Shown here: positions 15,535 through 60,182 of the stretch, piece after piece
Layout of the letters: each line of letters opens with the position of its first letter
Position numbering within the stretch: the first letter of the stretch is position 1
NCBI RefSeq assembly: GCF_000429105.1
Contig: NZ_KE386848.1
Location: 121,064 to 185,063, forward strand
Direction: 5' to 3'
Source of the DNA: Schaalia suimastitidis DSM 15538
GTDB lineage: Bacteria > Actinomycetota > Actinomycetes > Actinomycetales > Actinomycetaceae
DNA length: 64,000 nt
Made by a program: the position numbers and the translations under genes
Notes under the pieces: generated by a model
What the model was told of the DNA's origin: nothing
What the model saw: the letters and a program-made list of their open reading frames with translations, nothing else
Databases searched by the model: none

Positions 15535-15663
15535 TGCCGAGGTATGCGGAGGTTTCTCAGGGGCGCTGCCAGGGTGTCGCCTGAGTGTCGAAATCCTCGC
15601 GCAGAAAAAGGGGAGTCAGCACGATAGAGTGGAGGGGACCGCAACCGTACGAAGGAGGACATG

Positions 15664-30536: not shown

Positions 30537-30818
30537 GGTGGAGCCTCGCAGTATGCCATGACAATGCTTGATTACGAACGCTAATAATAAACATGAATGT
30601 GCATATCTGGTGTCGGTTTTCGTTGAAAAATCGGGTGCATTGCCCCACATCATCTAGTGTCGTGCATAACCCCAGGTTGCGATGTTGTGAGCAATCGATG
30701 CGGAGGATGGGAAACAAGAGGAACACCCAAAGTGTGAGCGTAGGGAGGCCCTTCATTGACGTCATATGGCCCACGGAGTGGCAAGGGCATCATGTAGTGA
30801 CGCCGTCCTTGTGTGGCC
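30537..30818. other. AT-rich promoter region upstream of the surface protease gene
   Basis: 282 bases with AT-rich stretches at about 30570-30640, notably more AT-rich than flanking genes. It should hold the protease promoter, but I cannot choose one -10 with confidence. No coding pattern. Confidence 0.5.
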
Positions 30819-39305: not shown

Positions 39306-39335
39306 TTGCAGAAATGGGTGTGTAACGGTTACATT
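39306..39335 (+). promoter_or_regulatory. malE promoter with overlapping LacI-type operator
   Basis: -35 TTGCAG (39306-39311), 18-nt spacer, -10 TACATT (39330-39335). The perfect 6-1-6 palindrome TGTAACGGTTACA (39321-39333) overlaps the -10. Two further half-site-like TGTAACAG copies lie at about 39265-39283 on the lacI side. Confidence 0.82.
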
Positions 39336-39401
39336 GGTTTTCACCGGACGGGGCTGTCCACATCGGGAGCCCGCCACACCTCACAACTCAGGAGTTCTGA
39401 T

Positions 39402-40640
39402 ATGCGACGCAGCATTGCAGCAATTGGCATTGTTGCCCTCACGGCATCACTTGCAGCATGTGGCACCAACAAAGCCGCGGACACGACCTCGACCAACACC
39501 GCGACCGAGACAACAACCAGCGAAGTGGGCACCCTTACCATCTGGGCCGACGACACCCGTTACACCCAGATGCAAGAATTTGCTACGGATTTCACCGCAG
39601 CCACCGGCATTGGTCTCAACGTCGTCCAAAAATCCGAAGACGATATGGACGATGAATTCATCACCCAGGTGCCCACCGGCAATGGCCCCGACGTTATGGT
39701 CACCGCACACGACCGCCTCGGCGGCCTCGTCGCCAATGGCGTAGTTGGTACCATCGACCTCGGCACCGCAGCCTCAGAACTGTCCGAATCCGCAGTACAA
39801 GGCGTGACCTATGACGGCCAAACCTACGGGATGCCCTACGCCATCGAATCGGTCGCCCTCATTCGCAACAATGCACTCACCACTGACACCCCCGCCACCT
39901 TCGATGACATGATCGCCTCAGGTAAGGCAACAGGCGCCGAGCGTCCTTTCGTTGTCCAGGCAGGTACCGGCGGACAACTTGACCCGTACCACATGTACGC
40001 CTTCCAAACATCTTTTGGTGCGCCCGTATTCAAACAGGAAGCGGATGGCTCCTACACCACAGAACTCGCGCTCGGCGGAGAAAACGGCACCAAATTTGCC
40101 GAATGGCTCCAAGCGCAGGGTGAAGCCGGTACCCTCGACACCTCGATCTCAGCAGATATCGCCAAGCAAATGTTCCTCGACGGCAAGGCCCCCTACATTG
40201 TGACCGGCCCATGGAATATCTCCGCCTTCACCGAAGCAGGCCTCGACATCGCGGTCCTGCCGATCCCCAGCGCCGGGGGACAAGAAGCCCAACCATTCGT
40301 GGGTGTGCAAGCCTTCTTCCCCTCAGCCAAGACCGCTAACCCGCTCCTCGTCGCCGAATTCATGAAGTACGTCGGCTCCAAGGAAGGCCAGCAGAAGCTG
40401 TACGAACTCGGCCAACGCATCCCAGCTCATACTGCTGCCGCACAAAGCATTGACGATGCACTACTCAAGGGCGTCGCTGAAGTTGCTGGTTCTGGTGTGC
40501 CAATGCCCGCCATCCCCGAAATGGGTTCCGTGTGGGAATTCTGGGGTGCCACCGAAGGCAATATCGCCACCGGCAAGGAAGCACCTGAGCAAGGATGGGC
40601 CACAATGGTCACCAACATCCAAAACGCCATCGCCAAGTAA
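39402..40640 (+). CDS. malE: Maltose/maltodextrin-type ABC transporter substrate-binding lipoprotein
   Basis: 412 residues. Lipoprotein signal with lipidated Cys20 (LTASLAACGTN) and a Thr-rich linker. The cluster D sugar-binding fold begins GTLTIWADDTRYTQMQEFATDF. PDVMVTAHDRLGGLVANGVV and YGMPYAIESVALIRNNAL are very MalE-like. GGAG precedes ATG 39402. A 14-bp stem-loop separates it from malF, which could give more malE than permease product. No transporter ATPase is encoded here, so a shared MsmK/MsiK-type ATPase elsewhere is expected. Confidence 0.92.
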   Translation: MRRSIAAIGIVALTASLAACGTNKAADTTSTNTATETTTSEVGTLTIWADDTRYTQMQEFATDFTAATGIGLNVVQKSEDDMDDEFITQVPTGNGPDVMVTAHDRLGGLVANGVVGTIDLGTAASELSESAVQGVTYDGQTYGMPYAIESVALIRNNALTTDTPATFDDMIASGKATGAERPFVVQAGTGGQLDPYHMYAFQTSFGAPVFKQEADGSYTTELALGGENGTKFAEWLQAQGEAGTLDTSISADIAKQMFLDGKAPYIVTGPWNISAFTEAGLDIAVLPIPSAGGQEAQPFVGVQAFFPSAKTANPLLVAEFMKYVGSKEGQQKLYELGQRIPAHTAAAQSIDDALLKGVAEVAGSGVPMPAIPEMGSVWEFWGATEGNIATGKEAPEQGWATMVTNIQNAIAK

Positions 40641-40666
40641 AGACCCTTCACAGCAGTGAAGTCGCG

Positions 40667-40706
40667 ATAGTCCCGGATAATCATTCATACGGTTATCCGG
40701 GACTAT
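40667..40706 (+). promoter_or_regulatory. Strong malE-malF intergenic stem-loop
   Basis: ATAGTCCCGGATAA (40667-40680) and TTATCCGGGACTAT (40693-40706) are perfect 14-bp complements with a 12-nt loop. No T-run follows. It probably protects malE mRNA or partly terminates transcription. Confidence 0.85.
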
Positions 40707-40761
40707 CCACACACCACAACGATCCACCCAGCCACACTCCCAGCACACCGGAGCATTCCAC

Positions 40762-42342
40762 ATGACACCCTCCCAAAATACGGCAGTGGATGAGGCACCC
40801 GTCTATCATCCTTCTCACGCCCGAGACGTGAGACGCCCAGGCTTTTTCATCAAACTCTTACTCATGATGCTGATCGATGCCTTGGGCATCTACGGCATTA
40901 TTACCGCCGCCATCGTGCAGTCCTGGATCATCGTGACGGTCCTAGTCGTCTTACTCATCGCCCTCAACTATGTGTATTTCTCGCGCAAGATGATTCCAGC
41001 GAAATACCTCATTCCTGGGATGGTCTTCCTGCTGATTTACCAAGTTTTCGTCATGGGATACACCGGCTACGTGTCACTGACAAACTACGGTCAAGGACAT
41101 AACTCCACCAAGAGTGACGCCATCGAAGCAATCCTCATGCAAAACCAGCGGCGCGCCCAAGACTCCGTGGACCTTTCAGCAGTCATCCTCGACCGAGGTA
41201 CAACCCTTGGTTTAGCCGTACTAGATAAAGACAGTGGCGAAGTGCTTATTGGCGATGCACAAACGCCACTCGAAGCAGTGCCTGGAGCAACGCTTGACAA
41301 TATTCCTGGCGAAACCATCCTCACCTTCAAAGAGATAGTTGCCCGTCAAACGGAACTGAAAACCCTGACTGTCCCAGTCAGTGACGACCCCAACGACGGT
41401 TTCTACGTCACCAATGATGGTTCCACCGCTTACCGCGCAGTATCCCTGCTCACCTACGATGAAGCTGCCGACACGATGACCAATGCCGAAACCGGCGTGG
41501 TGTACACCGCCTCGTCAAGTGAAGGTGCCTACGTTGCTTCCGACGGCACCCAGCTGTCGCCAGGCTGGCGCGTCTTTAAAGGATTCGACAACTACGGCAA
41601 TATTTTCGCCAACTCTGATCTAGCTGGTCCCTTCCTGAAAGCGCTGGGATGGTCCTTCGCCTTCTCTATCCTGTCTGTGTTGACGACCTTCGCATTCGGA
41701 CTTTTCTTGGCGTTGGTCTTTGCGGACCAACGCGTCAAAGGACGTCGCATCTATCAGTCGCTCCTCATCCTTCCCTACGCCTTCCCCGCTTTCTTAGCGA
41801 CACTGGTGTGGCGCGGCATGCTCAACACCGACTTTGGCTTCATTAACCAGGTTCTGCTGGGTGGCGCTTCCATCCCGTGGCTTACCGATGGCCTGTTAGC
41901 GAAGATCGCTATCCTCGGCGTCAACCTGTGGCTCGGCTTCCCCTACATGTTCCTCGTCTGTATGGGTGCCCTCCAATCCCTGCCATCCGATGTGATGGAG
42001 GCAGCACGTATGGACGGTGCGTCAGCACTTCGCACTGTGTGGAGCGTGAAACTTCCGCTGGTCCTTCAATCCACTGTGCCGCTATTGATCGCCTGCTTTG
42101 CCTTCAATTTCAACAATTTCTCGTTGATTTTCATGCTCACCGGTGGTGGTCCCAACTACCCAGGCTTGTCGGTGCCGGTCGGTGAAACGGATATCCTCAT
42201 TTCAATGGTCTACAAGATCGCCTTCCTTGGCGGTGCCCCCGACTACGGCTTGGCCTCGGCCATGTCAATCGTCATCTTCGTCGTTGTGGGCGTGATTGCC
42301 TGGCTTGGCTTCCGTCAAACGAAAGCATTGGAGGAACTGTGA
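40762..42342 (+). CDS. malF: Maltose-type ABC transporter permease MalF
   Basis: 526 residues, close to E. coli MalF in size. About eight membrane helices, with a large extracytoplasmic domain between helices near residues 105-280 as in true MalF. The EAA loop is EAARMDGASALRTVWSVKLPLV, followed by FNFNNFSLIFMLTGGGP. Start ATG 40762 with GGAG 8 nt upstream. malG overlaps the stop by 4 nt. Partner of MalE and MalG in sugar import. Confidence 0.93.
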   Translation: MTPSQNTAVDEAPVYHPSHARDVRRPGFFIKLLLMMLIDALGIYGIITAAIVQSWIIVTVLVVLLIALNYVYFSRKMIPAKYLIPGMVFLLIYQVFVMGYTGYVSLTNYGQGHNSTKSDAIEAILMQNQRRAQDSVDLSAVILDRGTTLGLAVLDKDSGEVLIGDAQTPLEAVPGATLDNIPGETILTFKEIVARQTELKTLTVPVSDDPNDGFYVTNDGSTAYRAVSLLTYDEAADTMTNAETGVVYTASSSEGAYVASDGTQLSPGWRVFKGFDNYGNIFANSDLAGPFLKALGWSFAFSILSVLTTFAFGLFLALVFADQRVKGRRIYQSLLILPYAFPAFLATLVWRGMLNTDFGFINQVLLGGASIPWLTDGLLAKIAILGVNLWLGFPYMFLVCMGALQSLPSDVMEAARMDGASALRTVWSVKLPLVLQSTVPLLIACFAFNFNNFSLIFMLTGGGPNYPGLSVPVGETDILISMVYKIAFLGGAPDYGLASAMSIVIFVVVGVIAWLGFRQTKALEEL

Positions 42343-43229
42343 TGGCACGTAACGCACGCACTGAGAAACTTCACACCTCTGTGACCGGATGGCGGTGGAT
42401 AGCCGAGGTAGGGTGGCGTCACGTTGTGGGCATCCTCGTCATCATTTACTGCGTGATTCCACTAGCTTACGTCTTGTCGGTGTCCCTGGTGCCGAATGCG
42501 ACGCTGACCGGCTCCAACGAACTCTTCCGCACGGTTTCATTCGACAATTTTGCTGCCTTGTCTGATACGCCGTATTGGAGCTGGATTGTTAACTCGCTCA
42601 TCGTTTCCAGTGTCACAGCCATTGGGACAGTACTGATGGGGGCAGCGGCAGCTTACGCGTTTAGCCGCTACCGTTTCCGCGGTCGTCGTGGCACCCTTAC
42701 CTTCCTCCTTTTAGTGCAAATGTTCCCGCAGATGCTGGCATTCGTGGCTCTATACCTGCTGCTCCTTGGTATCCAAGATGTCTTCCCGATTATTGGGTTG
42801 AACTCCAAACTTGGTCTGATTGCGGTGTATCTCGGTGGAGCACTCGGTTCCAATACCTTCCTGCTCTACGGTTTCTTTAATTCCGTGCCACGCGAGCTTG
42901 ACGAGGCAGCACAGATTGATGGGTGCAGTCATGCACAAACCTTCTGGACGATCATCATGCCGTTGGTGCTGCCAGTTCTTGCAGTTGTGTCACTGTTGAG
43001 CTTTATTTCCAGCTTCGGTGACTTCGTGATCGCCAAGGTTGTGCTTCAACAGCCCGAACAATTCACCCTCGCGGTGGGTATGTATAACTGGGTGGCTGAT
43101 GCCAGGACAGCCCCGTGGGGGGTATTTGCCGCAGGTGCGGTGGTCGCTGCGGTACCAGTCATCGCGCTATTCCAGTACCTCCAGCGTTACATCGTTTCTG
43201 GCCTGACGGCAGGAGCCGTCAAAGGGTAG
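42339..43229 (+). CDS. malG: Maltose-type ABC transporter permease MalG
   Basis: 296 residues, six helices. The EAA loop is ELDEAAQIDGCSHAQTFWTIIMPLVLPV, and the C-terminal tail IVSGLTAGAVKG is the conserved MalG end that contacts the ATPase. The start overlaps malF. A T-tailed terminator follows 15 nt after the stop, ending the operon without an ATPase gene. Confidence 0.94.
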   Translation: MMARNARTEKLHTSVTGWRWIAEVGWRHVVGILVIIYCVIPLAYVLSVSLVPNATLTGSNELFRTVSFDNFAALSDTPYWSWIVNSLIVSSVTAIGTVLMGAAAAYAFSRYRFRGRRGTLTFLLLVQMFPQMLAFVALYLLLLGIQDVFPIIGLNSKLGLIAVYLGGALGSNTFLLYGFFNSVPRELDEAAQIDGCSHAQTFWTIIMPLVLPVLAVVSLLSFISSFGDFVIAKVVLQQPEQFTLAVGMYNWVADARTAPWGVFAAGAVVAAVPVIALFQYLQRYIVSGLTAGAVKG

Positions 43230-47142: not shown

Positions 47143-48330
47143 ATGTTCACCGAGAAAACACGAGTCGTACTGTACAGCCACGACTCCCAGGGCCTGGGGC
47201 ACCTGCGACGTAACCTTGCCCTAGCCCACCACCTCGCCAACGAATTGCCACGCATGGGCGGCAAAGAACTCACCGGTCTACTTGTCACCGGCATTGTCCC
47301 CCCGGCCGGATCTACCCTTCCTGAGGGCTTCGACTGGTTGATTCTTCCCGGCATTTCGAAGGCAAGCGGCTCCTACCAGGCACGCAACCTCGGTGAAGAC
47401 CTCCCTACCGTCCTATCCATCCGATCAGCGATGATCGAAGCAGCATTGCTGTCATTCGAACCGGATATGGTCATCGTCGACCGCCACATCTATGGCGTCG
47501 GCAAAGAACTAAAAAAACCGCTGCACTGCCTGCGCAGCTACCTACCCCATAGCCGCATCATCCTGGGCTTGCGGGAAGTCCTCGACAGTCCACAGCGCTG
47601 CGCACGCGAATGGGAAAAACTCGGTGCCGGTACTGAACTGCGGGACATCATCGACGAAGTCTGGATCTACGGCGACAAAAAAGTTCACGACACTACCGCC
47701 ACAGGTGAAATCCCCTGGTACCTGCACACAAAGGCAGTCTTCACCGGGTACATCGCGAAACGTCACCACCTTGGTGACCACGGCCTCGACTCGAAACGTC
47801 CCTATATTGTCACGACCGCAGGCGGCGGCGAAGACGGCTACCACATCCTCGAACAGGCTGTACAAATCGACGTGCCGCACGGATATGACCACATCGTCGT
47901 TACCGGCCCTCAGCTTGACCGTGACAGTCGCAAACGCCTCCATACCATCGCCCGAACCGGTACACAGATCATCCCATCACTGCCGGGCCTAGGCAAAGTC
48001 ATCGACGAAGCCAGTGCCGTCATCGCCATGGGCGGCTACAACACGGTCAGCGAAATCCTCGCCACCACCACCCCCGCGCTCATCGTTCCACGGGAAAAGC
48101 CTCGACAGGAACAACTGATCCGCGCACAAGCCCTGGAAAAACATGGAGCCGTTGAGGTATTGCGTGCCCCACACGCACATGCTGATTCGCTCACCGCATG
48201 GATCCACTCGGCTGTTGGCCGCACCGTGTCACGCAGCAATATCGCCAGAGACGGCCTTGAGCATATGTGTCACCGCGCAGCAACACTCCTGAAAGACACC
48301 GCAGCATCCACCATGAAAGAAGTCCTATGA
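47143..48330 (+). CDS. Glycosyltransferase, COG4671/MurG-like (GT-B)
   Basis: 395 residues from ATG 47143, with AGGAGG 7 nt upstream. The N-terminus TRVVLYSHDSQGLGHLRRNLALAHHLA matches the GHLRR-type opening of COG4671 predicted glycosyltransferases. The C-terminal nucleotide-sugar domain has VTTAGGGEDGYHIL, VTGPQLDRDSR and IAMGGYNTVSEILATTTPALIVPREKPRQEQLIRAQAL, as in MurG/GT28 enzymes. No membrane helix. First gene of the cluster; the next gene overlaps its stop by 4 nt. Donor and acceptor are unknown. Confidence 0.85.
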   Translation: MFTEKTRVVLYSHDSQGLGHLRRNLALAHHLANELPRMGGKELTGLLVTGIVPPAGSTLPEGFDWLILPGISKASGSYQARNLGEDLPTVLSIRSAMIEAALLSFEPDMVIVDRHIYGVGKELKKPLHCLRSYLPHSRIILGLREVLDSPQRCAREWEKLGAGTELRDIIDEVWIYGDKKVHDTTATGEIPWYLHTKAVFTGYIAKRHHLGDHGLDSKRPYIVTTAGGGEDGYHILEQAVQIDVPHGYDHIVVTGPQLDRDSRKRLHTIARTGTQIIPSLPGLGKVIDEASAVIAMGGYNTVSEILATTTPALIVPREKPRQEQLIRAQALEKHGAVEVLRAPHAHADSLTAWIHSAVGRTVSRSNIARDGLEHMCHRAATLLKDTAASTMKEVL

Positions 48331-49541
48331 AACCCCGTATCGCCTACATCCTCAAGGTCTACCCCCGCTTTTCTGAGACCTTTATCGTCACCGAAATCCT
48401 TGCCCGCGAAGCTGCAGGTGAAGACATCAGTATCTACTCGCTGCGACCCACAAAGGACAGCCGCTTCCACCCCGAAATTGCTCGCGTTCAAGCCGGTGTC
48501 ACCTGGATAAGTCGCCCCACCACAACGGAAGAATTGTGGGAAAGTATCACCGCTTCACTGGCCGGTACCCACGAGGCCGAACGTTTCGCACAGATCCTTC
48601 CCGCATTGGCTACCTTACCGCCCGACGAAGTTGCGCAAGGCCTTGAATTGGCATATCGCCTTCAAGCGGACGGCATCACGCATATGCATGCCCACTTTGC
48701 GTCCCTCGCCGGCCGCGTCGCTTGGATCGCTTCACAGCTGAGCGGCATTCCTTTCACTGTCACGACACACGCCAAAGACATCTTTCACACAAGCGTGGAC
48801 CCACGATGGCTCAGCCGCGTACTCACAGGCGCGCACCGCGTCATTGCTATCAGCAAATACAACGAACGCTACCTCCACAATTTCCTCCAAGGACAAAGCG
48901 CTAATATCAGTTTGCTGCGCAACGGCATTGAACTGTCCCGTTTCCCCATGAAAGACCGTCACGACGTTGGCCCAGTCCTGCGTTTACTTGCCGTTGGCCG
49001 CCTGGTCCCCAAGAAAGGTTTCGACGTTCTTATCGAGGCGGTGGCGTGGCTACGCGACAACGGGATTGATTTCCGTCTTGACATCGCCGGTGAAGGCGAA
49101 TGCGCAGACGAGCTCAACGCCCTTATCGCCCGCCTTCACCTGGGCGAACACGTCCACATGCTTGGTGCACGCACACAAGCAGAAGTACGTGCATTGCTGG
49201 AGGACGCAGATATCTTCCTCGCTCCCTGCCGGGTCGCCGACGACGGCAATATGGACGGACTCCCGACCGTCCTCCTCGAATCGATGGCCGTAGGTACACC
49301 CGTTGTGGCCACCGCCGTCACCGGGATCCCCGAATTGGTCCGCAACGGTGAAACAGGCGTCCTCCTTGATGAGGCAGAAGCCACCAGCCTCGCGCAGGCA
49401 ATCGTACGCCTCGCAGCTGACGCCACACATCGCCGCCTTCTGGCAACTAATGCCCGCAACCTTCTGGAAATCGAATGTGACGCGCGCCGACAAGCGCGCA
49501 CCCTTGGCCAATGGGAATCCGCAGAACAGGAGCAAAACTAA
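48327..49541 (+). CDS. Glycosyltransferase family 4 protein
   Basis: 404 residues. N-terminal KPRIAYILKVYPRFSETFIVTEILAREAAG is typical of exopolysaccharide GT4 enzymes (WcaL/AmsK style). The C-terminal donor domain has AVGRLVPKKGFDVLIEAVA and the E-x7-E motif in DGLPTVLLESMAVGTPVVATAVTGIPELV. Start ATG overlaps the previous stop (ATGA). The next gene starts within its stop codon (TAATG). Confidence 0.92.
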   Translation: MKPRIAYILKVYPRFSETFIVTEILAREAAGEDISIYSLRPTKDSRFHPEIARVQAGVTWISRPTTTEELWESITASLAGTHEAERFAQILPALATLPPDEVAQGLELAYRLQADGITHMHAHFASLAGRVAWIASQLSGIPFTVTTHAKDIFHTSVDPRWLSRVLTGAHRVIAISKYNERYLHNFLQGQSANISLLRNGIELSRFPMKDRHDVGPVLRLLAVGRLVPKKGFDVLIEAVAWLRDNGIDFRLDIAGEGECADELNALIARLHLGEHVHMLGARTQAEVRALLEDADIFLAPCRVADDGNMDGLPTVLLESMAVGTPVVATAVTGIPELVRNGETGVLLDEAEATSLAQAIVRLAADATHRRLLATNARNLLEIECDARRQARTLGQWESAEQEQN

Positions 49542-50662
49542 TGCGTATCGCTTATGTATGTGTTGATCCAGGTATCGCCGTATTTGGTACCAAAGGTGCT
49601 TCCGTGCACATCCAAGAGGTCGTTCGTGAACTGCGTGCCCTGGGACACGAGGTCGAGGTCCATGCCCTCCGCCGTGGATCCGAAGTGCCCCGGGACCTTT
49701 CAGACCTAAAAGTATGCGAATACCTCATCGCCCCCAAAGATGGGCTTGAACGAGAACACGCCCAAGAAAAAGTGTCCCAGCAGATCGTTCGCGCCATCCG
49801 CGAAGGCAACTACGACCTCGTGTATGAACGTTACAGCCTCTTTAGTACCGTGATTGCTGACCTTGCTGTCATGCGTGAAGTGCCGGGCATCCTTGAGGTG
49901 AATGCGCCTCTTATTGATGAACAGCGTCAGCATCGCAGCCTCAGCAACGAAACGGGTGCGTGGCGGGCGCTGGAACGCCAAGCCCACGCGGCACGAGCCG
50001 TCATCTGTGTTTCTGACCTTGTCAAAGACTGGGTGATGCGTCATGCGCCCCTCGCGCGCGCATTCACAGTAGCAAACGGCGTGTCGGTGACACGCATCAC
50101 CCCACAGCCCGAAGACAGCCACAATGTCATCGTCACCTTCGTCGGCACACTCAAACCGTGGCACGGCGTTGAAGAACTACTACGCGCAGCAGCACTGCGT
50201 AAAGAAAACTGGAAACTGCGTATCATCGGGGACGGCCCCGAACGTCAGCGCCTCCAAAGCCTCGCCGCTGAACTTAGTGTGGACGCCGATTTCCGAGGCG
50301 CGATCGCCCCCGAGCACATGATGCAGCACCTGGCAGGTAGTGCCATTGGCGTAGCACCCTATCCCCAAGCCAAAGCAGGCGACTCGTATTTCTCGCCGCT
50401 GAAAGTCTACGAATACCTCGCAGCGGGCTTGCCTGTTGTCGCCTCCGACATTGGACAAATCCCGCAAATCCTCGACGACTTCGGCGTACTGGTTCCCCCA
50501 TCAGACCCGGCGCGCCTCGCACAGGCACTGGATGAACTCAGCTGCGATCGTGATCGACGCGCCCACATGGGCAAAGCTGGCCGTACTCGCGCCGAAGAGC
50601 GCCACTCCTGGCAACATGTCGTGCGCACCATCTTGCAGCTGGCGGCGATCACCCATGCCTGA
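49541..50662 (+). CDS. Glycosyltransferase family 4 protein
   Basis: 373 residues, translationally coupled to its neighbours by overlaps on both sides. N-terminal MRIAYVCVDPGIAVFGTKGASVHIQEVVRELRALGHEVEVHAL; the donor-binding part has FVGTLKPWHGVEELLRAA, IIGDGPERQRLQ and SPLKVYEYLAAGLPVVASDIGQIPQIL. The SPLKVYEY-type variant of the E-x7-E region is common in actinobacterial polysaccharide enzymes. Likely adds the second or third sugar of the glycan exported by the adjacent ABC protein. Confidence 0.91.
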   Translation: MRIAYVCVDPGIAVFGTKGASVHIQEVVRELRALGHEVEVHALRRGSEVPRDLSDLKVCEYLIAPKDGLEREHAQEKVSQQIVRAIREGNYDLVYERYSLFSTVIADLAVMREVPGILEVNAPLIDEQRQHRSLSNETGAWRALERQAHAARAVICVSDLVKDWVMRHAPLARAFTVANGVSVTRITPQPEDSHNVIVTFVGTLKPWHGVEELLRAAALRKENWKLRIIGDGPERQRLQSLAAELSVDADFRGAIAPEHMMQHLAGSAIGVAPYPQAKAGDSYFSPLKVYEYLAAGLPVVASDIGQIPQILDDFGVLVPPSDPARLAQALDELSCDRDRRAHMGKAGRTRAEERHSWQHVVRTILQLAAITHA

Positions 50663-52445
50663 AAAGAAACGCCAAGGGATGCGAGCAGCTATTGCGCTGC
50701 TTGCACCTCACCTGAAAAAACACAAAGGACTGATTTTCTTCGGCACCCTAGCGTTGCTGTTGGACGTCGTCTTTAGGGTGCTGGAACCCTGGCCACTCAA
50801 GATCGTGATTGATTCGATCCTGAGCGCACAAGGTATCGAATCTAGCGGACCAAAAGCCACCCTGACGATGCTCGTCGTCCTGGGCGGACTGCAGGTGCTG
50901 ATCGTGGCTGCACGCGCTGCGTGCAACTACCTATCCACAACCGCATTTGCCACGGTTGGCTCACGTGCAGCCGCGTCATTACGCAAAGTGGTATTCAGCC
51001 ACGTACAAGGCCTCAGCCAGCAATTCCACGCACGTAACCGCAGCGCCGACACCGTACAACGGATCGTTTCCGATGTAGCACGTATGCAGGAAGTCGCCGT
51101 CACCGCCGGCCTACCACTGGTGGCCAATATGACAACCCTGGTGGTCATGCTGGGCGTCATGGCCGTCCTCGACCCAATCCTGGCCATCGTCGTCGTCGTG
51201 GCAGTGGCACTCTTTGCCCTCAGCACATCAGGTATTTCCCGACGCATCACCGAAGCATCCCGCAAAAGTCGCGCCGGGGAAGGACATCTGGCAAATACCG
51301 CCCAGGAATCCCTGTCATCCATTAAGTTAATCCAAGCCTACGGACTGGAATCCTTTATCGAACGCCGTTTCGCTGGAGCCAATAAATCCTCTATGAAGGC
51401 CTCCATTTCGTCCCTCCAACTGGCAGCTCGTCTCGAACGTGGCACAGATGTGATTGTCGGCATGGCTTTGGCTGCAGTAATTGTCGGCGGCGGCATACGC
51501 GTCATGGGTAGTGCGATGACTATCGGTGAACTCGTCGTCTTCATCACCTACCTCAAATCCACCATGAAGCCACTGCGCGACATGGCAAAATATACCGGCC
51601 GTATCTCACGTGCCAATGCCTCGGCAGAACGTGTCGCTGACCTGTTGGCCACCCGCAATGAAATTGTCGAAAAAGACAATGCCATGCATCTCAATAGTGT
51701 TGCCGGCGACATCATCTACGACCACGTGAGCACTGCCTACGATGGGCACCAGATCCTCAACGACGTTTCCCTACGCATCACCCCAGGGGAACATGTCGCA
51801 TTGGTGGGACCGTCGGGCGCAGGAAAATCGACATTCATGTCGCTCCTGGTTCGCAGCCAAGACCCCACCAGCGGCCGCGTCCTTCTGGACGGCAAAAACC
51901 TTACCGATGTGTCGCTCACGCAGTTGCGCTCACAGGTCACCATGCTGCACCAGGACGCTGTACTGCTGGCCGGCACCATCCGCGACAATATCGCGATTGG
52001 CGACTCAAATGCCACCCAAGAAGATATTGAAAATGCAGCGCGTGCCGCCAATGCGCATCACTTCATTACTGAGTTGCCCGATGGCTACGACACCGTCGTA
52101 GGGGAGCGAGGCGGCACATTATCAGGCGGCCAACGTCAACGCATCGCCATTGCACGCGCACTATTGCGCAACAGCCCCGTGATCTGCCTTGACGAGGCGA
52201 CAACGGGCCTGGACCCGGAAGCGACGACGCAAGTCCTTGAAGCTCTCGACGTTCTCATCCAAGGCCGCACGACACTGTCAGTCACTCACCAATCGGTCAG
52301 CGCCTTGCGGGCAAGCCGTGTCCTGTGGATCGACAACGGGCAGGTACTTCTGGACGGCACGCCCACCGAATTACTTGAAACCTCCCAACTTTTTAGGGAC
52401 TGGGTAGATGCCGACACCGGCACGAAAGGCATGGTGAATAAGTGA
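50655..52445 (+). CDS. ABC exporter, fused membrane and ATPase domains (MsbA/ABCB-like)
   Basis: 596 residues. Type IV exporter half-transporter: six membrane helices in the first 320 residues with FGTLALLLDVVFRVLEPWPLKIVIDSIL, then the ATPase domain with Walker A GPSGAGKST (about 385-393), the Q-loop, signature LSGGQRQRIAIARAL and Walker B VICLDEATTGLD. The WPLKIVIDSIL pattern is shared with lipid- and glycolipid-type exporters. It overlaps the preceding glycosyltransferase by 8 nt and the following phosphotransferase by 1-4 nt, so export of the cluster's product is the natural role. Confidence 0.92.
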   Translation: MPEKKRQGMRAAIALLAPHLKKHKGLIFFGTLALLLDVVFRVLEPWPLKIVIDSILSAQGIESSGPKATLTMLVVLGGLQVLIVAARAACNYLSTTAFATVGSRAAASLRKVVFSHVQGLSQQFHARNRSADTVQRIVSDVARMQEVAVTAGLPLVANMTTLVVMLGVMAVLDPILAIVVVVAVALFALSTSGISRRITEASRKSRAGEGHLANTAQESLSSIKLIQAYGLESFIERRFAGANKSSMKASISSLQLAARLERGTDVIVGMALAAVIVGGGIRVMGSAMTIGELVVFITYLKSTMKPLRDMAKYTGRISRANASAERVADLLATRNEIVEKDNAMHLNSVAGDIIYDHVSTAYDGHQILNDVSLRITPGEHVALVGPSGAGKSTFMSLLVRSQDPTSGRVLLDGKNLTDVSLTQLRSQVTMLHQDAVLLAGTIRDNIAIGDSNATQEDIENAARAANAHHFITELPDGYDTVVGERGGTLSGGQRQRIAIARALLRNSPVICLDEATTGLDPEATTQVLEALDVLIQGRTTLSVTHQSVSALRASRVLWIDNGQVLLDGTPTELLETSQLFRDWVDADTGTKGMVNK

Positions 52446-53527
52446 TGCAAACAGCAGATATTGTCGACTTCACCATGGATAGCACCGCCATCAGCGACGC
52501 CTTCGGACGTCCTGTGGAAACTACACGCATCCGCATTAAACCCGAGCACTCCCTCGCGCTTTCACTCAAAGAGGGCGCAACGGGTGCCACCTACTGGGCA
52601 CAGATCCTGTGGCCACACAAGCGAGACAAAGCCACCACGATACGTCGCGAGACAGCGGGGCAGATCCACGAATGTGAAATGCCAGGGGAGTTGCTCCTCA
52701 TTGGCGGTCAGGCCCTCACAGACCCGGCACTTGACACCTATACGCGCACACTTGCCCTTGATGGCTACCAGATCCTTCGTCACAACCCTTTGCGCCGCCT
52801 CGTTGTCGGCAACGACACCACCATTTGCCGTGTCAGCGCCCGGCCTCAGGTAACGATGACTCAGCTTCACAGTGCGCTGGCAGACCTGCCAATCCCCGCA
52901 CTCGTGAGCGCCCCCCATATCGGGCCAGCCAACGCGACCCATGTGAGCGCGCAACAACGACTGGGCAGTCATGACCTCTCCCAGGTGCGCAGTGCCCACG
53001 GGCACTGGCACGCCGGCCAGATCCTCGCCGCCCTCCATGGACACGCCGCGGCCGCCATGCTGCGCCAACCACGCGGTATCGACCGTCACCTGGCAGCTGG
53101 CACCGCCCACATTGGCATCCTCAGTCACCTTGCCCCAGCACTCGCACAGCGACTGGCGGAGCTACTGCCGCTGGTCAAACGCGAAAAAGGCCAATGTGTC
53201 CTCACTCATGGTGATGCGTCGCCCGATCAATTTCTCGCTAACGACGCCGAAACCCACGTCTGGATCACCGACTTTGAGCGTGCACGCTTGGCGCCACGTG
53301 AAGCAGACCTCGGATCCTACCTTCAATGTGCGCCGCCTCATGCAGCCCAGCCCTTCCTTGACGGCTACGAGGCTGGCGGTGGCCAGGTACCCGACGATGA
53401 CTATCTGCGTGACGCGCGAGCCCGCACCATCGTGGAAAAACTCGCAGAGCCACTGCGCAATGCGCAGCCCACGTGGAAAAACGACATGAACAACGCCCTT
53501 GACGAACTGGAAGGACTCCTTCGATGA
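52442..53527 (+). CDS. APH-fold phosphotransferase (kinase-like), HGDxxxxQ type
   Basis: 361 residues; GTG 52442 and ATG 52445 are both possible starts. The C-terminal part holds the aminoglycoside-phosphotransferase catalytic loop THGDASPDQFL and the metal site WITDFERARLAPREADLGSYL. Gln replaces the Asn of the usual HGDxxxxN, as in maltokinases. The N-terminal half, with RIKPEHSLALSLKEG, resembles the N-lobe of Mak-like or trehalose-associated kinases. The substrate is probably a sugar or glycolipid intermediate rather than an antibiotic, judging by the neighbours. It overlaps the second kinase-like gene by 4 nt. Confidence 0.82.
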   Translation: MMQTADIVDFTMDSTAISDAFGRPVETTRIRIKPEHSLALSLKEGATGATYWAQILWPHKRDKATTIRRETAGQIHECEMPGELLLIGGQALTDPALDTYTRTLALDGYQILRHNPLRRLVVGNDTTICRVSARPQVTMTQLHSALADLPIPALVSAPHIGPANATHVSAQQRLGSHDLSQVRSAHGHWHAGQILAALHGHAAAAMLRQPRGIDRHLAAGTAHIGILSHLAPALAQRLAELLPLVKREKGQCVLTHGDASPDQFLANDAETHVWITDFERARLAPREADLGSYLQCAPPHAAQPFLDGYEAGGGQVPDDDYLRDARARTIVEKLAEPLRNAQPTWKNDMNNALDELEGLLR

Positions 53528-54498
53528 AAGCGTTTGAACGCCTCAACGCCATCGCGGATGTTCGACGCGCGTGGCCAGCAGCAGGCAACAGCATCGTCTT
53601 TGAAACACTTGACGAATACCAGCGTATTCGCGCCGGCAAGATTGACGCCGACGGCACGGTGACGATTAATGCCTACGCCAGTGACGGTCAACTGCCGACA
53701 GTGGCAGGTGCGACCGGCGATATTGTTGTCCACCGCCTCGGCAGACGAGCTGTCGAAATGCGCAGTCGAAGCGTACGCAAACACCTGCGCGCCTCCAAGG
53801 TCGCCTCAGCTTTTGGCGCAGCCCAGCTCGCCTCACGCGCAGCGCGGCGCTGCGGACTGTATGTCCCGCCCGTCATCGCCGTCGGCCAAACCTATATCGA
53901 CTTCGAAATGCGTCCGGGTATTAGCCTGGCCGGTGCTGACTGCCCCGAAAGCGCGTGGGAAGCCTTCTACGCCACATGGCCAGGTTTTGCCGCCAGCACA
54001 GTCGACGCCGCCACACACGATGGCGCAGATGAAGCCCGGGTACTTGCCACGTGGCTTGACCACGTGCGCACCCACAACACCATGGAAGCCATCACCGACA
54101 TTGCTGCCAATGCTCAAAGGGTTGCTGCAGTCTTGACTCGTACAGGTGACCATCTCGTCACCGCCCACCGTGACCTGCACGAAAAGCAAATGCTGTGGGA
54201 TGGACGTCACCTTACCCTCCTCGATGGGGACACCATCGCCCGCAGCGAAGCGGCCCTTGACCTTGGCAACCTCGCTGCACACCTTGAACTTGCCGCCACC
54301 AGCGGACACATTCCCACCAGCACAGTCAACCACCGCCTGGGCAAACTTCGCGACCTTGCGCACACGATGCATGTGAGCGAAAGCCGCCTAGAGGCATATA
54401 CCCAAGCAGCACGCCTGAGAACCGCGTGCGTGCACTCATTCAGACCAACATCTATGCCGTGGATCAGCCACTGGATTGACCACTGCCTGGCCCACTGA
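53524..54498 (+). CDS. Second APH-fold phosphotransferase, HRDxxxxQ type
   Basis: 324 residues, start overlapping the previous stop (ATGA). The catalytic loop is TAHRDLHEKQMLW and the metal site LLDGDTIARSEAALDLGNLAAHL. Sequence before residue 120 diverges from the first kinase. The two differ enough that this is not a recent duplication. HRD in place of HGD recalls eukaryotic-like kinases, but no other protein-kinase motif is present. Last gene of the tight overlap chain; an 82-nt gap precedes ugd. Confidence 0.8.
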   Translation: MKAFERLNAIADVRRAWPAAGNSIVFETLDEYQRIRAGKIDADGTVTINAYASDGQLPTVAGATGDIVVHRLGRRAVEMRSRSVRKHLRASKVASAFGAAQLASRAARRCGLYVPPVIAVGQTYIDFEMRPGISLAGADCPESAWEAFYATWPGFAASTVDAATHDGADEARVLATWLDHVRTHNTMEAITDIAANAQRVAAVLTRTGDHLVTAHRDLHEKQMLWDGRHLTLLDGDTIARSEAALDLGNLAAHLELAATSGHIPTSTVNHRLGKLRDLAHTMHVSESRLEAYTQAARLRTACVHSFRPTSMPWISHWIDHCLAH

Positions 54499-54580: not shown

Positions 54581-55894
54581 ATGAATATCTCAGTTATCGG
54601 ATGCGGATACCTCGGCGCCGTCCACGCAGCATGTATGGCCTCCCTCGGCCACACGGTCGTTGGTATCGACACCAATAAAGAACGCGTTGACGCACTTGCT
54701 CAAGGTATCCCACCGTTCCACGAACCCGGCTTTGAGGAACTACTGGCTGAACAAATTGCCAGCGGACGCCTGAGCTTTACCACCAATGCTGACGAGGTGG
54801 ATTTTTCCAGCATCGACGTTCACTTCCTTGCCGTGGGCACGCCACAAAAGGCTGACTCTCATGCCGCTGATCTGTCGTACCTGTGGAGTGTCGTGGATAT
54901 GCTCATCACGAAGGATATTCGTGGAGCACTCCTCGTTGGCAAATCGACCGTCCCAGTCGGCACCGCCCAACAAATCGCCGACACCGTCGAACCCTATGGT
55001 GCAACCCTTATGTGGAACCCTGAGTTCCTACGTGAAGGCTTCGCCATCAAAGACACCTTACATCCTGACCGCATTGTCTACGGTCTGCCCGCCGACGAAA
55101 ACCGTGCGGCACGTGCGAAAAGTACCCTCGATGCTGTGTACGCAGCCCTGCTAGAAGAAGAAATCCCACTGCTCACAGCTGACTACGCCACTGCCGAACT
55201 GGTCAAGGTTGCTGCGAACGCCTTCCTGGCAACCAAGATCTCATTCATTAACGCCATGGCCGAAATCTGTGAAAGTACCGGTGGTGATGTGACAATCCTG
55301 GCTGATGCCATCGGTCACGATCCGCGTATTGGTCGCCGTTTCCTTGGCGCCGGCATTGGTTTTGGTGGCGGCTGCCTACCTAAAGACATACGCGCCTTTG
55401 TTGCGCGCGCCGAAGAGCTTGGCAATGGCGAATCGGTGTCCTTCCTCCGACAGGTTGACGCCATCAACGGGCGACGCCGCAGCCGCGTTATCGATTTGTC
55501 CCACGAAATGTTGGGCAAGGACCTCTCTGGCGCGCGCGTGGCCGTGCTTGGCGCCGCATTCAAGCCCAATAGTGACGACATACGTGACTCGCCGGCCCTT
55601 GACGTGGCAACGCGGCTTCACGAGGCAGGGGCAGATGTAGTGGTCACCGATCCCAAGGCCCTGCCTGCTGTTGCGGCCCGCTACCCGCAGCTGCGCCTCG
55701 AAAAGGAAACAACCACAGCGCTCAAAGATGCCGACCTGGTGATCCTGGCAACGGAATGGGACGAATACGCCACCCTCAACGCCACCCAGGTGGCAGGCCT
55801 GACACGTCAAAGCAACGTGATCGACGCACGCAACGTCCTCAACCATGAGCAGTGGCGTTCCCAAGGGTGGAACTTGCGCGGCTTAGGGCGATAA
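54581..55894 (+). CDS. ugd: UDP-glucose 6-dehydrogenase
   Basis: 437 residues. It oxidises UDP-glucose to UDP-glucuronate, a precursor for acidic polysaccharides. NAD-binding VIGCGYLGAVHAACMASLGH, the motif NPEFLREGFAIKDTLHPDRIVYG, and the catalytic Cys in GFGGGCLPKDIRAF are present, as is the C-terminal UDP-binding domain (GAAFKPNSDDIRDSPALDVA). Its place after the glycosyltransferase/exporter genes suggests that the glycan contains glucuronic acid or a derivative. Confidence 0.95.
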   Translation: MNISVIGCGYLGAVHAACMASLGHTVVGIDTNKERVDALAQGIPPFHEPGFEELLAEQIASGRLSFTTNADEVDFSSIDVHFLAVGTPQKADSHAADLSYLWSVVDMLITKDIRGALLVGKSTVPVGTAQQIADTVEPYGATLMWNPEFLREGFAIKDTLHPDRIVYGLPADENRAARAKSTLDAVYAALLEEEIPLLTADYATAELVKVAANAFLATKISFINAMAEICESTGGDVTILADAIGHDPRIGRRFLGAGIGFGGGCLPKDIRAFVARAEELGNGESVSFLRQVDAINGRRRSRVIDLSHEMLGKDLSGARVAVLGAAFKPNSDDIRDSPALDVATRLHEAGADVVVTDPKALPAVAARYPQLRLEKETTTALKDADLVILATEWDEYATLNATQVAGLTRQSNVIDARNVLNHEQWRSQGWNLRGLGR

Positions 55895-55930
55895 AAGATG
55901 AACATAGGTGCACGTATCCTCAAGGCAGGG

Positions 55931-55942
55931 CACAATAGCCAC
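55931..55942 (+). promoter_or_regulatory. -10 element of the sensor kinase gene, probable leaderless transcript
   Basis: CACAAT (55931-55936), 6 nt, then GTG at 55943; the same ACAAT-N6-GTG arrangement as at recO. Confidence 0.45.
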
Positions 55943-57424
55943 GTGAGACTTTGGGGAGCGGATGCCAAAATCCGTACGCGCATCCTATGGAGCATCATCG
56001 GTGTGGCCGTCAGTGCCGTACTGGTATGCGGGGTCAGCGTCTTTGTCCTCCAAACAAATAGTGTCTACTCGCAGATGACGTCAGAACTGCAAAGTATCGA
56101 AGGCGAACTCAAAGTACTTGCTGAAACTGGAGTAGATCCGCAAACAGGACAACCTTTCGCTGACCCCGCTGCGGTGATCCGCACACATTTAGAACGTTCA
56201 GTACTTCAACAAAGTGAATCAGAAATGGGTTACGTCGGCGCGAATCTCACCTGGCTCGCGCCCTTGGATGTGACATTTCGGCCCGAACAGGATGCCGAAC
56301 TACTCAGCGACGTCGCACAATGGGTCCAAGCCACCGAAAGCACCATACGTACCGTGTCGACGACCTCAGGTACCTACAGGGTCCTGGTGGCTCCTGTCCA
56401 TTCGGGTTCTTCCTCTGGCGCCCTCGTGCACGTCTACGATGTTAATAGTGCACTGGCGGGTCTGCGATCCATGCTGTGGACCTATGCCATTGTGGGGATC
56501 TTCACCATTGCGTTAGTGGCCGCCTTGGCCCATTTACTTGTTGGCAGACTTTTGCGACCCATCGGTGAATTGCGTGATGCCACCGAATCCATTGACGAAA
56601 CAGATCTGACCAAACGCGTGCCTGTACGAAGCCGAGACGACTTGGGGCGTTTGGCCGCATCCTTCAACCGAATGCTTGACCGTGTGCAGGAAGCCTCAGA
56701 TGCACAGCGGGCCTTACTTGACGATGTCGGACATGAGTTACGTACCCCGGTGACGATCCTGCGTGGCCACCTTGAATTAATCGACCCCACCGATGAGGAC
56801 GATGTCCGTCAAACCCGCGACTTGCTCCTTGATGAGACCCAACGCATGGGGATGCTCGTAGAAGACATTCTGATGCTCGCCAAAGCCCAGCAAGCAGATT
56901 TTGTTACCGCTACTGACGTTGACCTTGAGGTCCTTGGCGAGCAAGTCTTTGAAAAGGCGCGCGCCCTTGGTGACCGCGCATGGGTTGCTGACCTTCACGC
57001 TGTTGGCCAATCGAGGCTTGATGCGAGCCGTGTCACCCAAGCCTGGTTGCAGTTGGTGGACAATGCTGTCAAATATTCACGACCTGCCTCCACGATTACC
57101 GTGGGGTCACGTATCGTTGACAACGTCATTGAGTTGTCAGTGCGCGACGAAGGTATTGGCATTTCACCTGAGGATCTTGATCGTATTACTCAACGTTTTG
57201 CCCGCAGTCGCCAAGCGGCGCGCATGGCAGGCGGGAGCGGCTTGGGCTTAAGTATTGTCGAGACTATCGTCGTTGCCCACGGGGGTGTCCTTGCGGTCAC
57301 CTCACAGCCTGGGATCGGATCAACCTTCACCCTGCGCCTACCTGTCGTTCATGCACCTGACCCTGATACACCCGATACGTCGACGGCATCGTCGAAGCCC
57401 ACACCCTCCAAGGAGCGTCAATGA
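55943..57424 (+). CDS. Sensor histidine kinase (HAMP, HisKA, HATPase_c)
   Basis: 493 residues from GTG 55943; an ATG at 55898 in frame would add 15 residues. Layout: one N-terminal membrane helix (IRTRILWSIIGVAVSAVLVCG), an extracytoplasmic sensor of about 130 residues, a second helix (TYAIVGIFTIALVAALAHLLVG), a HAMP linker, H-box DVGHELRTPV with phospho-acceptor His264, an N-box LVDNAVKYS, G1 DEGIGIS and G2 GGSGLGLSIV. The C-terminal tail is Pro/Thr/Ser-rich. The response regulator overlaps its stop by 4 nt. The stimulus is unknown; an envelope signal is suggested by the glycan genes upstream. Confidence 0.92.
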   Translation: MRLWGADAKIRTRILWSIIGVAVSAVLVCGVSVFVLQTNSVYSQMTSELQSIEGELKVLAETGVDPQTGQPFADPAAVIRTHLERSVLQQSESEMGYVGANLTWLAPLDVTFRPEQDAELLSDVAQWVQATESTIRTVSTTSGTYRVLVAPVHSGSSSGALVHVYDVNSALAGLRSMLWTYAIVGIFTIALVAALAHLLVGRLLRPIGELRDATESIDETDLTKRVPVRSRDDLGRLAASFNRMLDRVQEASDAQRALLDDVGHELRTPVTILRGHLELIDPTDEDDVRQTRDLLLDETQRMGMLVEDILMLAKAQQADFVTATDVDLEVLGEQVFEKARALGDRAWVADLHAVGQSRLDASRVTQAWLQLVDNAVKYSRPASTITVGSRIVDNVIELSVRDEGIGISPEDLDRITQRFARSRQAARMAGGSGLGLSIVETIVVAHGGVLAVTSQPGIGSTFTLRLPVVHAPDPDTPDTSTASSKPTPSKERQ

Positions 57425-58080
57425 GACAGATCCTCATCGTTGAAGACGAAGAACGCATCGCCTCATTCATTGCCAAAGGACTGAAAGCTGCAGGCTACTC
57501 GACGATCGCCACGCCGTCGGGCCGTCAAGCCGTCACCTTACTGCTGACTGCAGAATTTGACCTCGTCATCCTTGACGTGGGTTTGGAGGATATTGACGGG
57601 TTTGAGGTCCTTGAACAGATGCGCGGGCAAGGTGTGTCAACGCCGGTCATTATGTTGACTGCACGTTCATCTGTGGCTGATCGGGTTGCGGGCCTGGAAG
57701 GTGGAGCCGACGACTATATGGCGAAACCTTTCTCCTTTGATGAGCTTTTGGCGCGTGTGAAGCTGCGTTTGCGAGCCGAAAAAACGCAAATGCCCGAGGC
57801 GGAGCTTGCTCACGCGGGGATGGTGTTGAACCTGCGGACACGCCAGATACACGTGGATGGGCGCGTGATCGACCTGTCGGCCCGTGAATTTGCGCTCGCT
57901 GAAGCGTTGATGCGTCACCCTGGGCAAATACTGTCGCGTGAACAACTCTTGTCGTCCGTTTGGGGTTTTGATTTCGACACGGGTTCCAATGTGGTGGATG
58001 TGTATATCTCGTATTTGCGTTCCAAATTAGGTAAGGATCACGTGGAAACGGTCCGCGGTATGGGGTATCGCCTCCGATAG
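57421..58080 (+). CDS. OmpR family response regulator
   Basis: 219 residues. The receiver domain has the acidic pair in IVEDEERI, phospho-acceptor Asp52 in VILDVGL and Lys in YMAKPF. The winged-helix DNA-binding domain follows from about 125 (IDLSAREFALAEALMRHPGQILSREQLLSSVWG ... VDVYISYLRSKLG). The start overlaps the kinase gene (ATGA). A perfect bidirectional terminator lies 180 nt downstream. Targets are unknown. Confidence 0.95.
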   Translation: MRQILIVEDEERIASFIAKGLKAAGYSTIATPSGRQAVTLLLTAEFDLVILDVGLEDIDGFEVLEQMRGQGVSTPVIMLTARSSVADRVAGLEGGADDYMAKPFSFDELLARVKLRLRAEKTQMPEAELAHAGMVLNLRTRQIHVDGRVIDLSAREFALAEALMRHPGQILSREQLLSSVWGFDFDTGSNVVDVYISYLRSKLGKDHVETVRGMGYRLR

Positions 58081-58997: not shown

Positions 58998-60182
58998 CTA
59001 GGCGTAATCAAAGGGGGTGGGGGCCGCCTGCACGCGGGCGGTTTCAAACCACCCGCAACTATGTGCAGGCAGCGTAAAGGACACGGCAGAACGGTGACGG
59101 GGCGCCGCGGACGTCAGGAGCGGCAGGTGCTGGCTGGGAACCTCAATATCGGTGGAGGTTGTATTGAGTACCACCATGATCCCTGACACGATCATCACGA
59201 GGACCCCATCAGGGGCCCACTCAAGACCATCGACGATAGCCAACGACCCTGTGCCCATATCCCGTTCGCGGCGCAACCGCGTTGCTTCACGAAGCATAGC
59301 CACACGTGTTGTTCCACCGCCAAGTGCGCTGGCTTGGGCTTCAAGGGGGCTACATTGGGCGACCGGTATGCCACTGGCAAGGTAGACGCTTCCAGGCAAG
59401 GCAAGGGAGGCAAGCAAGCGAGCATTGTCGTCGTAGCCGGTTTGAGGCGATGCGGCAGCGTCGTTTTCCGAGGCCGACCACGACCATGCGGTCACCTGTC
59501 CTATGGGGTCACGCAATTCGTAGGCTTGTCGCAAGGTGCGCGCAATAGAAGGCCCATCCCAAGCGGTGTGATTAAGGAACGTGTCCCGCAGATGGTGGAA
59601 CCAGTTGTCTTCGAGTTGGTGACGCAATACATCGACGCTGGTTGTCGCTGACGATGCAGTCAAAATGGGGGAGTCGTCCTCGCCGCTGACCTCAGCCAGA
59701 AGGACCTGGACGAGGTCAGTAAAACGCTGGGCGTAACGGGCCTGTCCGTCTGGCGTGGCAATAGATGCTGGATCGGGTATTTCAGCGAGGTCAACGCCAT
59801 CGGCGCCAGCAGCCCGGCAGGCGCGGATACGGCCAAGCAGTGTGGTCACGCCCTCCATGACATCAAGGGTTGAGGCATCGACTGGGATAGCAGCCCCAGG
59901 AAGCGTAACAAGTACCTTCAGTGAATGCTCGTGCGTGGAGGCAACGAAAAGGGCGAGACGCCTGTCCCGTACCACATCAGCTGTCGATAGCTCCACGTGC
60001 ACAGCGTCCACACCCAGAGACGAGGCGCACTGGCCAAGGTGGAGTAAATTCGCCAAAGCCTCACCGTCCAGGGCGGGGCCTATGGGTAATACGACGGCAT
60101 TGTGCCACCACACACTTGGGCCGCGGTGCTTACGGTGGAGTAAAACCGTGCGCACCCGAGTCGAGGACGCATCAACTGTCAC
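58998..60182 (-). CDS. Degenerate GH13 (alpha-amylase family)-like protein, probably not catalytic
   Basis: 394 residues; active GH13 glucosidases of this type are usually 500-600. VWWHNAVVLPIGPALDGE resembles the WWxxAVxYQIYPRSF start of alpha-glucosidases, RACRAAGADGVDLAEIPD sits where GVDGFRxD should be, and FLNHTAWDGPSIARTLRQ resembles the NHDxxR region. DDNARLLASLALPGSVYLASG matches the LLLTLPGTPxxYxG block. The nucleophile Asp is displaced (Ala-Glu there) and the acid/base Glu block is not recognisable. It is divergent from dgt by 60 nt. GTG start. Family assignment is by eye. Confidence 0.62.
   Translation of the reverse strand: MTVDASSTRVRTVLLHRKHRGPSVWWHNAVVLPIGPALDGEALANLLHLGQCASSLGVDAVHVELSTADVVRDRRLALFVASTHEHSLKVLVTLPGAAIPVDASTLDVMEGVTTLLGRIRACRAAGADGVDLAEIPDPASIATPDGQARYAQRFTDLVQVLLAEVSGEDDSPILTASSATTSVDVLRHQLEDNWFHHLRDTFLNHTAWDGPSIARTLRQAYELRDPIGQVTAWSWSASENDAAASPQTGYDDNARLLASLALPGSVYLASGIPVAQCSPLEAQASALGGGTTRVAMLREATRLRRERDMGTGSLAIVDGLEWAPDGVLVMIVSGIMVVLNTTSTDIEVPSQHLPLLTSAAPRHRSAVSFTLPAHSCGWFETARVQAAPTPFDYA

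Follow-up and report, generated by a model that had tools for sequence, protein, structure and literature searches.

What do six overlapping genes make that occur in the same order in bacteria as different as Actinomyces, filamentous cyanobacteria and Escherichia coli carrying certain plasmids? The question is raised by a stretch of 64,000 nucleotides (hereafter, the window) from Schaalia suimastitidis DSM 15538 (NCBI RefSeq assembly GCF_000429105.1, contig NZ_KE386848.1, positions 121,064 to 185,063 of the forward strand), in which positions 47143–54498 hold six genes on the + strand, here called A to F, each start overlapping the preceding stop by 1–8 bases. They encode three glycosyltransferases (A, B and C), an ATP-binding cassette (ABC) exporter (D) and two kinase-like proteins (E and F). 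An earlier, model-made reading of the sequence (the original prediction) had placed all six genes correctly and had taken them for a dedicated unit that assembles and exports a glycan, two phosphotransferases included. Our analysis supports such a unit: this is a real, widespread and apparently uncharacterised cassette for glycan synthesis and export, its six genes very probably work together, and its product is probably a secreted glycan. To the pathway as a whole, in which the glycan is soluble and is acted on by the kinases, we assign a probability of about 0.5.

The gene order is not due to chance. Within the Actinomycetales, F was sought in 198 genomes (E 0.001), which gave 36 matches including the window's own; among the other 35, all of which were fetched, 30 carry A-B-C-D in order together with a kinase gene (seen by profile only at locus L068), one (L069) has a changed order, and the four without the cassette (L070–L073) match F least well of all (E 1.3e-4 to 9.9e-4). 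A scan of species genomes with a profile of A yielded at least 584 relatives; in 64 of the best 80, which were kept, A-B-C-D stand in order, so that the order did not break up in relatives. These 64 loci come from Actinomycetota, Cyanobacteriota, Pseudomonadota, Nitrospirota, Planctomycetota and Chloroflexota, and a copy in Gemmatimonadota is rearranged (A-D-B-C); the view that the set belongs to actinobacteria, from which the original prediction knew similar gene sets, was therefore dropped. Where at least 8 kb could be read from the start of A (n = 63), 55 loci begin A-B-C-D (56 counting L088, in which C is split) and the other seven are arranged otherwise; E or F is present in 54 of the 55, and both in 47. 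Finally, in an independent sample of the host's phylum A was sought in 396 genomes (E ≤1e-30). Of the 18 matches, two (in the window and in one genome of the Actinomycetales) were already known; of the 16 new loci, six hold all of A–F in order and another six agree with it up to the contig ends that cut them short. Between the six proteins, pairwise distances show correlations of 0.70–0.89 (49 sets, window included), as expected if the six descend together. At one locus (L042, 13792–16695, - strand) relatives of B and C lie in a single long frame, which may be a fusion of two transferases. Gene sets whose order survives across phyla usually have a useful product, and since the same order is kept in very different bacteria, this one probably makes and secretes a sugar compound.

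The cassette also appears to move. In a quick tree of 64 concatenated A–D sets, 43 Actinomycetota rows and the window fall on one side, and on the other are Cyanobacteriota (nine), Pseudomonadota (four, plus an E. coli plasmid copy), Planctomycetota (three) and Nitrospirota, Chloroflexota and Gemmatimonadota (one each). By tree path the nearest cassette to the window's is that of Buchananella hordeovulneris, and the window lies in a group of nine (SH-aLRT 99) with Actinomyces, Buchananella, Gleimia, Arachnia, Rothia, Corynebacterium and an uncultured member of the Propionibacteriaceae; because this group spans four families, exchange is suggested. In E. coli the A gene is found in 18 of 5426 genomes, every time on a plasmid, and the plasmid record that we read has the order A-B-C-D-E-F, AlgE-type protein, nucleotide sugar dehydrogenase. 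On E. coli plasmid pCFSAN004179G (L176), insertion sequence elements flank the cassette, and the same plasmid has an annotated heat-stable enterotoxin gene. Other carriers include Actinomyces oris, Actinomyces naeslundii and Arachnia propionica, all known from dental plaque, as well as Arthrobacter, Brevibacterium and filamentous cyanobacteria.

The kinase-like proteins had been described as two different APH-fold proteins. The fold was borne out for both (by Pfam for E and by predicted models for the pair), but they are related to each other, as their iterated profiles cross-hit. Residues H256, G257, D258, Q263, D277 and D289 are invariant in the E alignment (54 rows: 57 stretches minus L046, L083, L172 and L174, plus the window), as are H215, D217, Q222, D234 and D236 in that of F (58 rows: 61 stretches minus the second of L051, L092, the first of L095, L098, L101 and L174, plus L039, L040 and the window); with the fold and an invariant catalytic Asp, both belong to the APH superfamily (PF01636). 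In the excerpt of the glucosamine kinase study that we used (PMC6520443), the catalytic residues D300, Q305 and D317 lie in the motifs HGDFHVGQ and DFD, and the Gln and DxD metal sites of E (Q263, D277) and F (Q222, D234) match them. As far as that excerpt goes, E and F share with maltokinase and actinobacterial glucosamine kinase the APH fold and the catalytic loops HxDxxxxQ and DxD, and we predict that they are sugar kinases with this catalytic signature. They differ in being tied to transferases and an exporter and in lacking the glucosamine-binding consensus Q-x2-RE-x2-YA-x3-LP-x-W (0 of 52 E and 0 of 56 F sequences). Another protein of the host genome carries HGDLHLGQ and, going by this motif, is presumably maltokinase-like. 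E and F share one stop-free frame in nine of the 48 loci that have both, and in Paracoccus they are annotated as a single protein of 740 amino acids. At an Arthrobacter locus (L095, 16721–18999) two F-like genes stand in tandem, a duplicated or third kinase, and L092 too has a second F match. Plain tblastn of F against plasmids gave no match, though annotated E. coli plasmids carry F, because F is too diverged (42 bits even by profile).

Table 1. Genes of the cassette and other features of the window, with bit scores and, where given, model cut-offs.
Feature	Position	Strand	Assignment	Matches
A	47143..48330	+	GT-B glycosyltransferase, MurG-like C domain	Pfam Glyco_tran_28_C 33.9 bits (cut-off 22)
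B	48327..49541	+	GT4 glycosyltransferase	Glycos_transf_1 130.9 bits; closest curated relative EpsE 184.9 bits (cut-off 400)
C	49541..50662	+	GT4 glycosyltransferase	Pfam Glycos_transf_1; Glyco_trans_1_4 86.5 bits
D	50655..52445	+	MsbA-like single-chain ABC exporter	ABC_membrane 122 bits; ABC_tran 121.2 bits
E	52442..53527	+	APH-fold kinase-like protein	Pfam APH 34.7 bits (cut-off 23.2)
F	53524..54498	+	Second APH-fold kinase-like protein	Pfam none; APH fold from predicted model
ugd	54581..55894	+	Nucleotide sugar dehydrogenase, probably UDP-glucose 6-dehydrogenase	TIGR03026 400.4 bits (cut-off 189.8)
Histidine kinase	55898..57424	+	Sensor histidine kinase	HAMP, HisKA, HATPase_c
Response regulator	57421..58080	+	Response regulator, winged-helix output domain	Response_reg, Trans_reg_C
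Uptake genes	39306..43229	+	Solute-binding protein and two permeases, sugar-type uptake	
DUF5692 gene	31613..32539	+	DUF5692 protein	477.6 bits
1401-residue protein	26448..30653	-	M26 IgA1-peptidase-like region, Rib and SHIRT domains	
394-residue open reading frame	58998..60182	-	Convergent to the operon	Pfam and NCBIfam none

Could the cassette be a known locus under another name? None of A–F reached an NCBIfam cut-off among the matches listed (the best 25 of 39 for B and the best 25 of 189 for D), nor did any of six relatives from E. coli, Azospirillum, Rhizobium and Mixta (for one of them, among the best 25 of 108). The models of the teichuronic acid locus stayed below their cut-offs (TuaC 83.1 against 550, TuaD 329.8 against 700, TuaH 63.3 against 550), as did the GPMC system glycosyltransferase (NF038229, 98.1 against 400), and on the matches listed for the window and the six relatives a known teichuronic, capsule, colanic or EpsE locus was set aside; the search for a known teichoic acid, capsule or antibiotic locus identified none. 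Pfam matches confirmed glycosyltransferase A, the two GT4 enzymes and the single-chain MsbA-like exporter, and the ten proteins scanned, like the cassette as originally described, include no Wzx, Wzy, initiating phosphoglycosyltransferase or ligase, the genome itself not having been searched for Wzx/Wzy; the host's single phosphoglycosyltransferase (PF02397) lies on a different contig. D, with ABC_membrane and ABC_tran in one chain, is not of the ABC-2 type (Wzm/Wzt, KpsMT) that exports capsule or O antigen, and the transferases are of the GT-B type, with no inner-membrane GT2 synthase in the cassette such as marks synthase-dependent exopolysaccharide systems. The AlgE-type channel of the latter does occur at four loci (L108, L140, L172 and L132), most other diderm loci being without it. 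Annotators have called the genes glycosyltransferase, ABC transporter and aminoglycoside phosphotransferase, and open-licence full texts, searched with several terms combined, gave no named product and no recognisable paper on the cassette, which is weak evidence of absence.

The nature of the product is best approached through the gene behind the cassette. In diderm bacteria this is often a porin: an AlgE-type porin directly follows in Nitrospirota (L108), Mixta (L140) and E. coli (L172; Alginate_exp PF13372) and, by profile, in Lautropia (L132), and an OprB-type porin follows in cyanobacteria (L113, L135 and L147, with L137 by profile). Taking as testable the diderm loci with at least 1.5 kb of DNA after the cassette, such a porin is found in seven of 14 in the species-genome set, and in eight of 16, four of each type, when the E. 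coli plasmid (porin) and Paracoccus (none) are counted. The former figure was eight of 15 before the Tolypothrix locus L146 was taken out, its order being A-A-B-D without C or kinases and with a histidine phosphatase gene, nearer to the sister clusters described below; L131, whose kinases and OprB lie together on the strand opposite A, was not counted. At L146 itself (D at 12.1 kb and 13969–15807) an OprB gene stands directly after the exporter of this sister-like set. That this position is filled from two different channel families suggests that porins were recruited separately to meet a single need, an outlet for a sugar product. These porins are our main reason for favouring a soluble glycan over the flipped glycolipid of the original prediction: a soluble acidic oligo- or polysaccharide is the likeliest product, rather than a glycolipid anchored in the membrane, and the chances are roughly even that the product is both soluble and the substrate of the kinases.

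The surroundings of the cassette add a probable donor and a possible switch. The six genes had been given as the whole run; all six stand, but the run goes on after a gap of 82 bases into ugd, the histidine kinase and the response regulator, which are nearly gapless among themselves. The hint at glucuronate in the original prediction can be retained, with ugd in the window, beside the E. coli plasmid cassette, in nine of the 64 A-B-C-D loci and adjoining the cassette in seven of the window's tree group of nine. The window's histidine kinase family occurs in 22 of the 64 loci, that of the response regulator in 25 and both in 17; neighbours were picked mechanically within 21-kb loci, so that some may be missed and some counted that are unlinked, and most neighbour families are unannotated (family 0, which resembles antisense open reading frames, was ignored).

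We hypothesize that the six genes form one dedicated pathway, in which a glycan would be built in the cytoplasm and then secreted. A, B and C would add sugars from nucleotide donors, one of them, in this lineage, probably UDP-glucuronate from the adjoining ugd; E and F would phosphorylate the primer or the growing glycan prior to export, and D, as a homodimer, would carry the product over the inner membrane. In many diderms the AlgE- or OprB-type porin encoded directly behind may release it, and the sensor kinase and regulator next to the cassette are probably what turns the pathway on in this lineage.

Several observations weigh against this pathway. Three of the remaining loci in the phylum sample have a kinase-like gene between C and D (with B undetected in one), and the last shows A and E only. 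By profile, six cyanobacterial loci (L119, L128, L135, L137, L145 and L147) have a single kinase, although two others (L113 and L131) have both; twin kinases are therefore not essential, and we dropped them as a strict rule. Plain vertical descent would produce correlated distances as well. Seven of the 14 testable diderm loci lack such a porin in the fetched DNA, as does the Paracoccus copy, and these eight loci weaken the case for a soluble glycan; moreover, OprB porins are common in cyanobacteria, so that their adjacency there weighs less. Lastly, MurG-like enzymes mostly act on lipid acceptors, and A, whose profile matches MurG (1f0k) at E 3.2e-11 and whose COG4671-type label we take over as a presumed name, would thus favour a lipid-linked intermediate.

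The last point leads to a rather unlikely alternative, the glycolipid model: the three transferases would assemble a short phosphorylated glycan on a lipid, either diacylglycerol or polyprenyl phosphate, and D would then flip the result, as MsbA does with lipid A. Besides the MurG-likeness of A and the half of the testable diderm loci that have no neighbouring porin, it could draw on D, which is nearest to MsbA-type models (TIGR02204, 392.7 bits, cut-off 780.4; TIGR02203, the lipid A model, 365.1). The latter score, however, is far under its cut-off of 602, glucan-export models do nearly as well (PRK13657, 324.3), and a lipid-anchored product would not use the porins of two Pfam families that directly follow the cassette in eight diderm loci.

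The kinases invite two further readings. That they only salvage free sugars for the nucleotide-sugar supply, leaving the glycan untouched, is improbable: uptake genes stand at few loci, no pyrophosphorylase is seen among the annotated neighbours (most being unannotated), and the E gene overlaps that of the exporter and overlaps or is fused with that of F; at some loci, moreover, a kinase lies between C and D. More improbable still is a secreted oligosaccharide antibiotic or signal that the three transferases would build, the kinases inactivate inside the cell for the safety of the host and D export. Kinases of the APH fold are well known for their role in self-protection, E has profile or fold matches to APH, macrolide and amicoumacin kinases, and a corramycin phosphotransferase ranks second for F in the PDB search; in the 50-row structure lists the absence of other folds is uninformative. 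Yet E scores only 18.7 bits against a cut-off of 205 with the NCBIfam model of the resistance kinase APH(3'), the recurring neighbours that are annotated (a minority) include no recognisable sugar-tailoring or scaffold gene, and conservation across phyla is unlike that of most antibiotic clusters. The metal-site Gln, moreover, fits saccharide kinases, as far as the excerpt of PMC6520443 shows. It does not fit antibiotic kinases, which have HGDxxxxN. If a phosphorylated acidic glycan is indeed secreted, it may explain unassigned matrix material, as well as the proteins annotated 'aminoglycoside phosphotransferase' at such loci, which are unlikely to be resistance enzymes; the kinases with their Gln signature offer a concrete enzymatic handle on the cassette.

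The remainder of the neighbourhood in this 2.29 Mb genome is ordinary. Upstream are the sugar-uptake genes (relatives of whose permeases stand at a few other cassette loci), a class II tRNA synthetase, dus and a type I dehydroquinase, and downstream an HD phosphohydrolase and dnaG. AGGAGG lies upstream of the start codon of A (ATG, 47143); a promoter scan gave 3 against 4.9 in shuffles and terminators 17 against 10.9 (standard deviation 3.4), neither of which is used as evidence. Elsewhere in the window (Table 1), the 1401-residue protein, with its M26, Rib and SHIRT regions, is of a kind found on mucosal colonisers.

How does the cassette compare with known systems? As in cyclic beta-glucan export (NdvA/ChvA) and HepA-type systems, a single-chain ABC exporter would carry a sugar polymer, and D scores 327 bits with HepA, close to its score with PRK13657, but it is far under the cut-offs (PRK13657, 733; HepA, 725; another NdvA/ChvA model, 250.0 against 585.4), and the cassette has three GT-B transferases and kinases, with no large cyclic glucan synthase among the scanned neighbours. 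It resembles alginate and other AlgE-linked secretion in the PF13372 protein directly after it in E. coli, Mixta, Lautropia and Nitrospirota, and differs in having no membrane synthase, the inner-membrane step being an ABC exporter. WbdD-type, kinase-terminated O antigens likewise combine GT4 transferases, a sugar kinase and ABC export, but by way of an ABC-2 exporter where the cassette has a single-chain ABC_membrane protein, and WbdD falls short of significance when F is searched against the PDB (E 0.62).

Closer at hand are sister clusters in Rhizobium, Mesorhizobium, Azospirillum, Sulfitobacter and Desulfobulbaceae, which have relatives of A and B, a further glycosyltransferase, an ABC exporter and, in several cases, a nucleotide sugar dehydrogenase. 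Their exporter is larger, and no kinase genes were seen in the stretches read; histidine phosphatase and deacetylase genes are present in Azospirillum and Sulfitobacter, MBL and deacetylase genes in Mesorhizobium, and neither set in R. etli. On plasmids of Sulfitobacter, Rhizobium, Azospirillum and Mesorhizobium (L173, L175, L177, L178 and L179) some sister clusters are accompanied by adenylate cyclases or cyclic-nucleotide-binding proteins, and the cluster of R. etli CIAT 652 includes two genes named redA and redB. The known routes of bacterial glycan secretion include Wzx/Wzy, ABC-2, synthase and extracellular sucrase. We tentatively raise the possibility, itself doubtful, that the cassette represents a further route, with three GT-B transferases, a single-chain ABC exporter, a kinase pair whose phosphorylation of the glycan would license or end export, and interchangeable outer-membrane sugar porins, a route whose genes keep their order in six phyla, are rearranged in one more and travel on plasmids.

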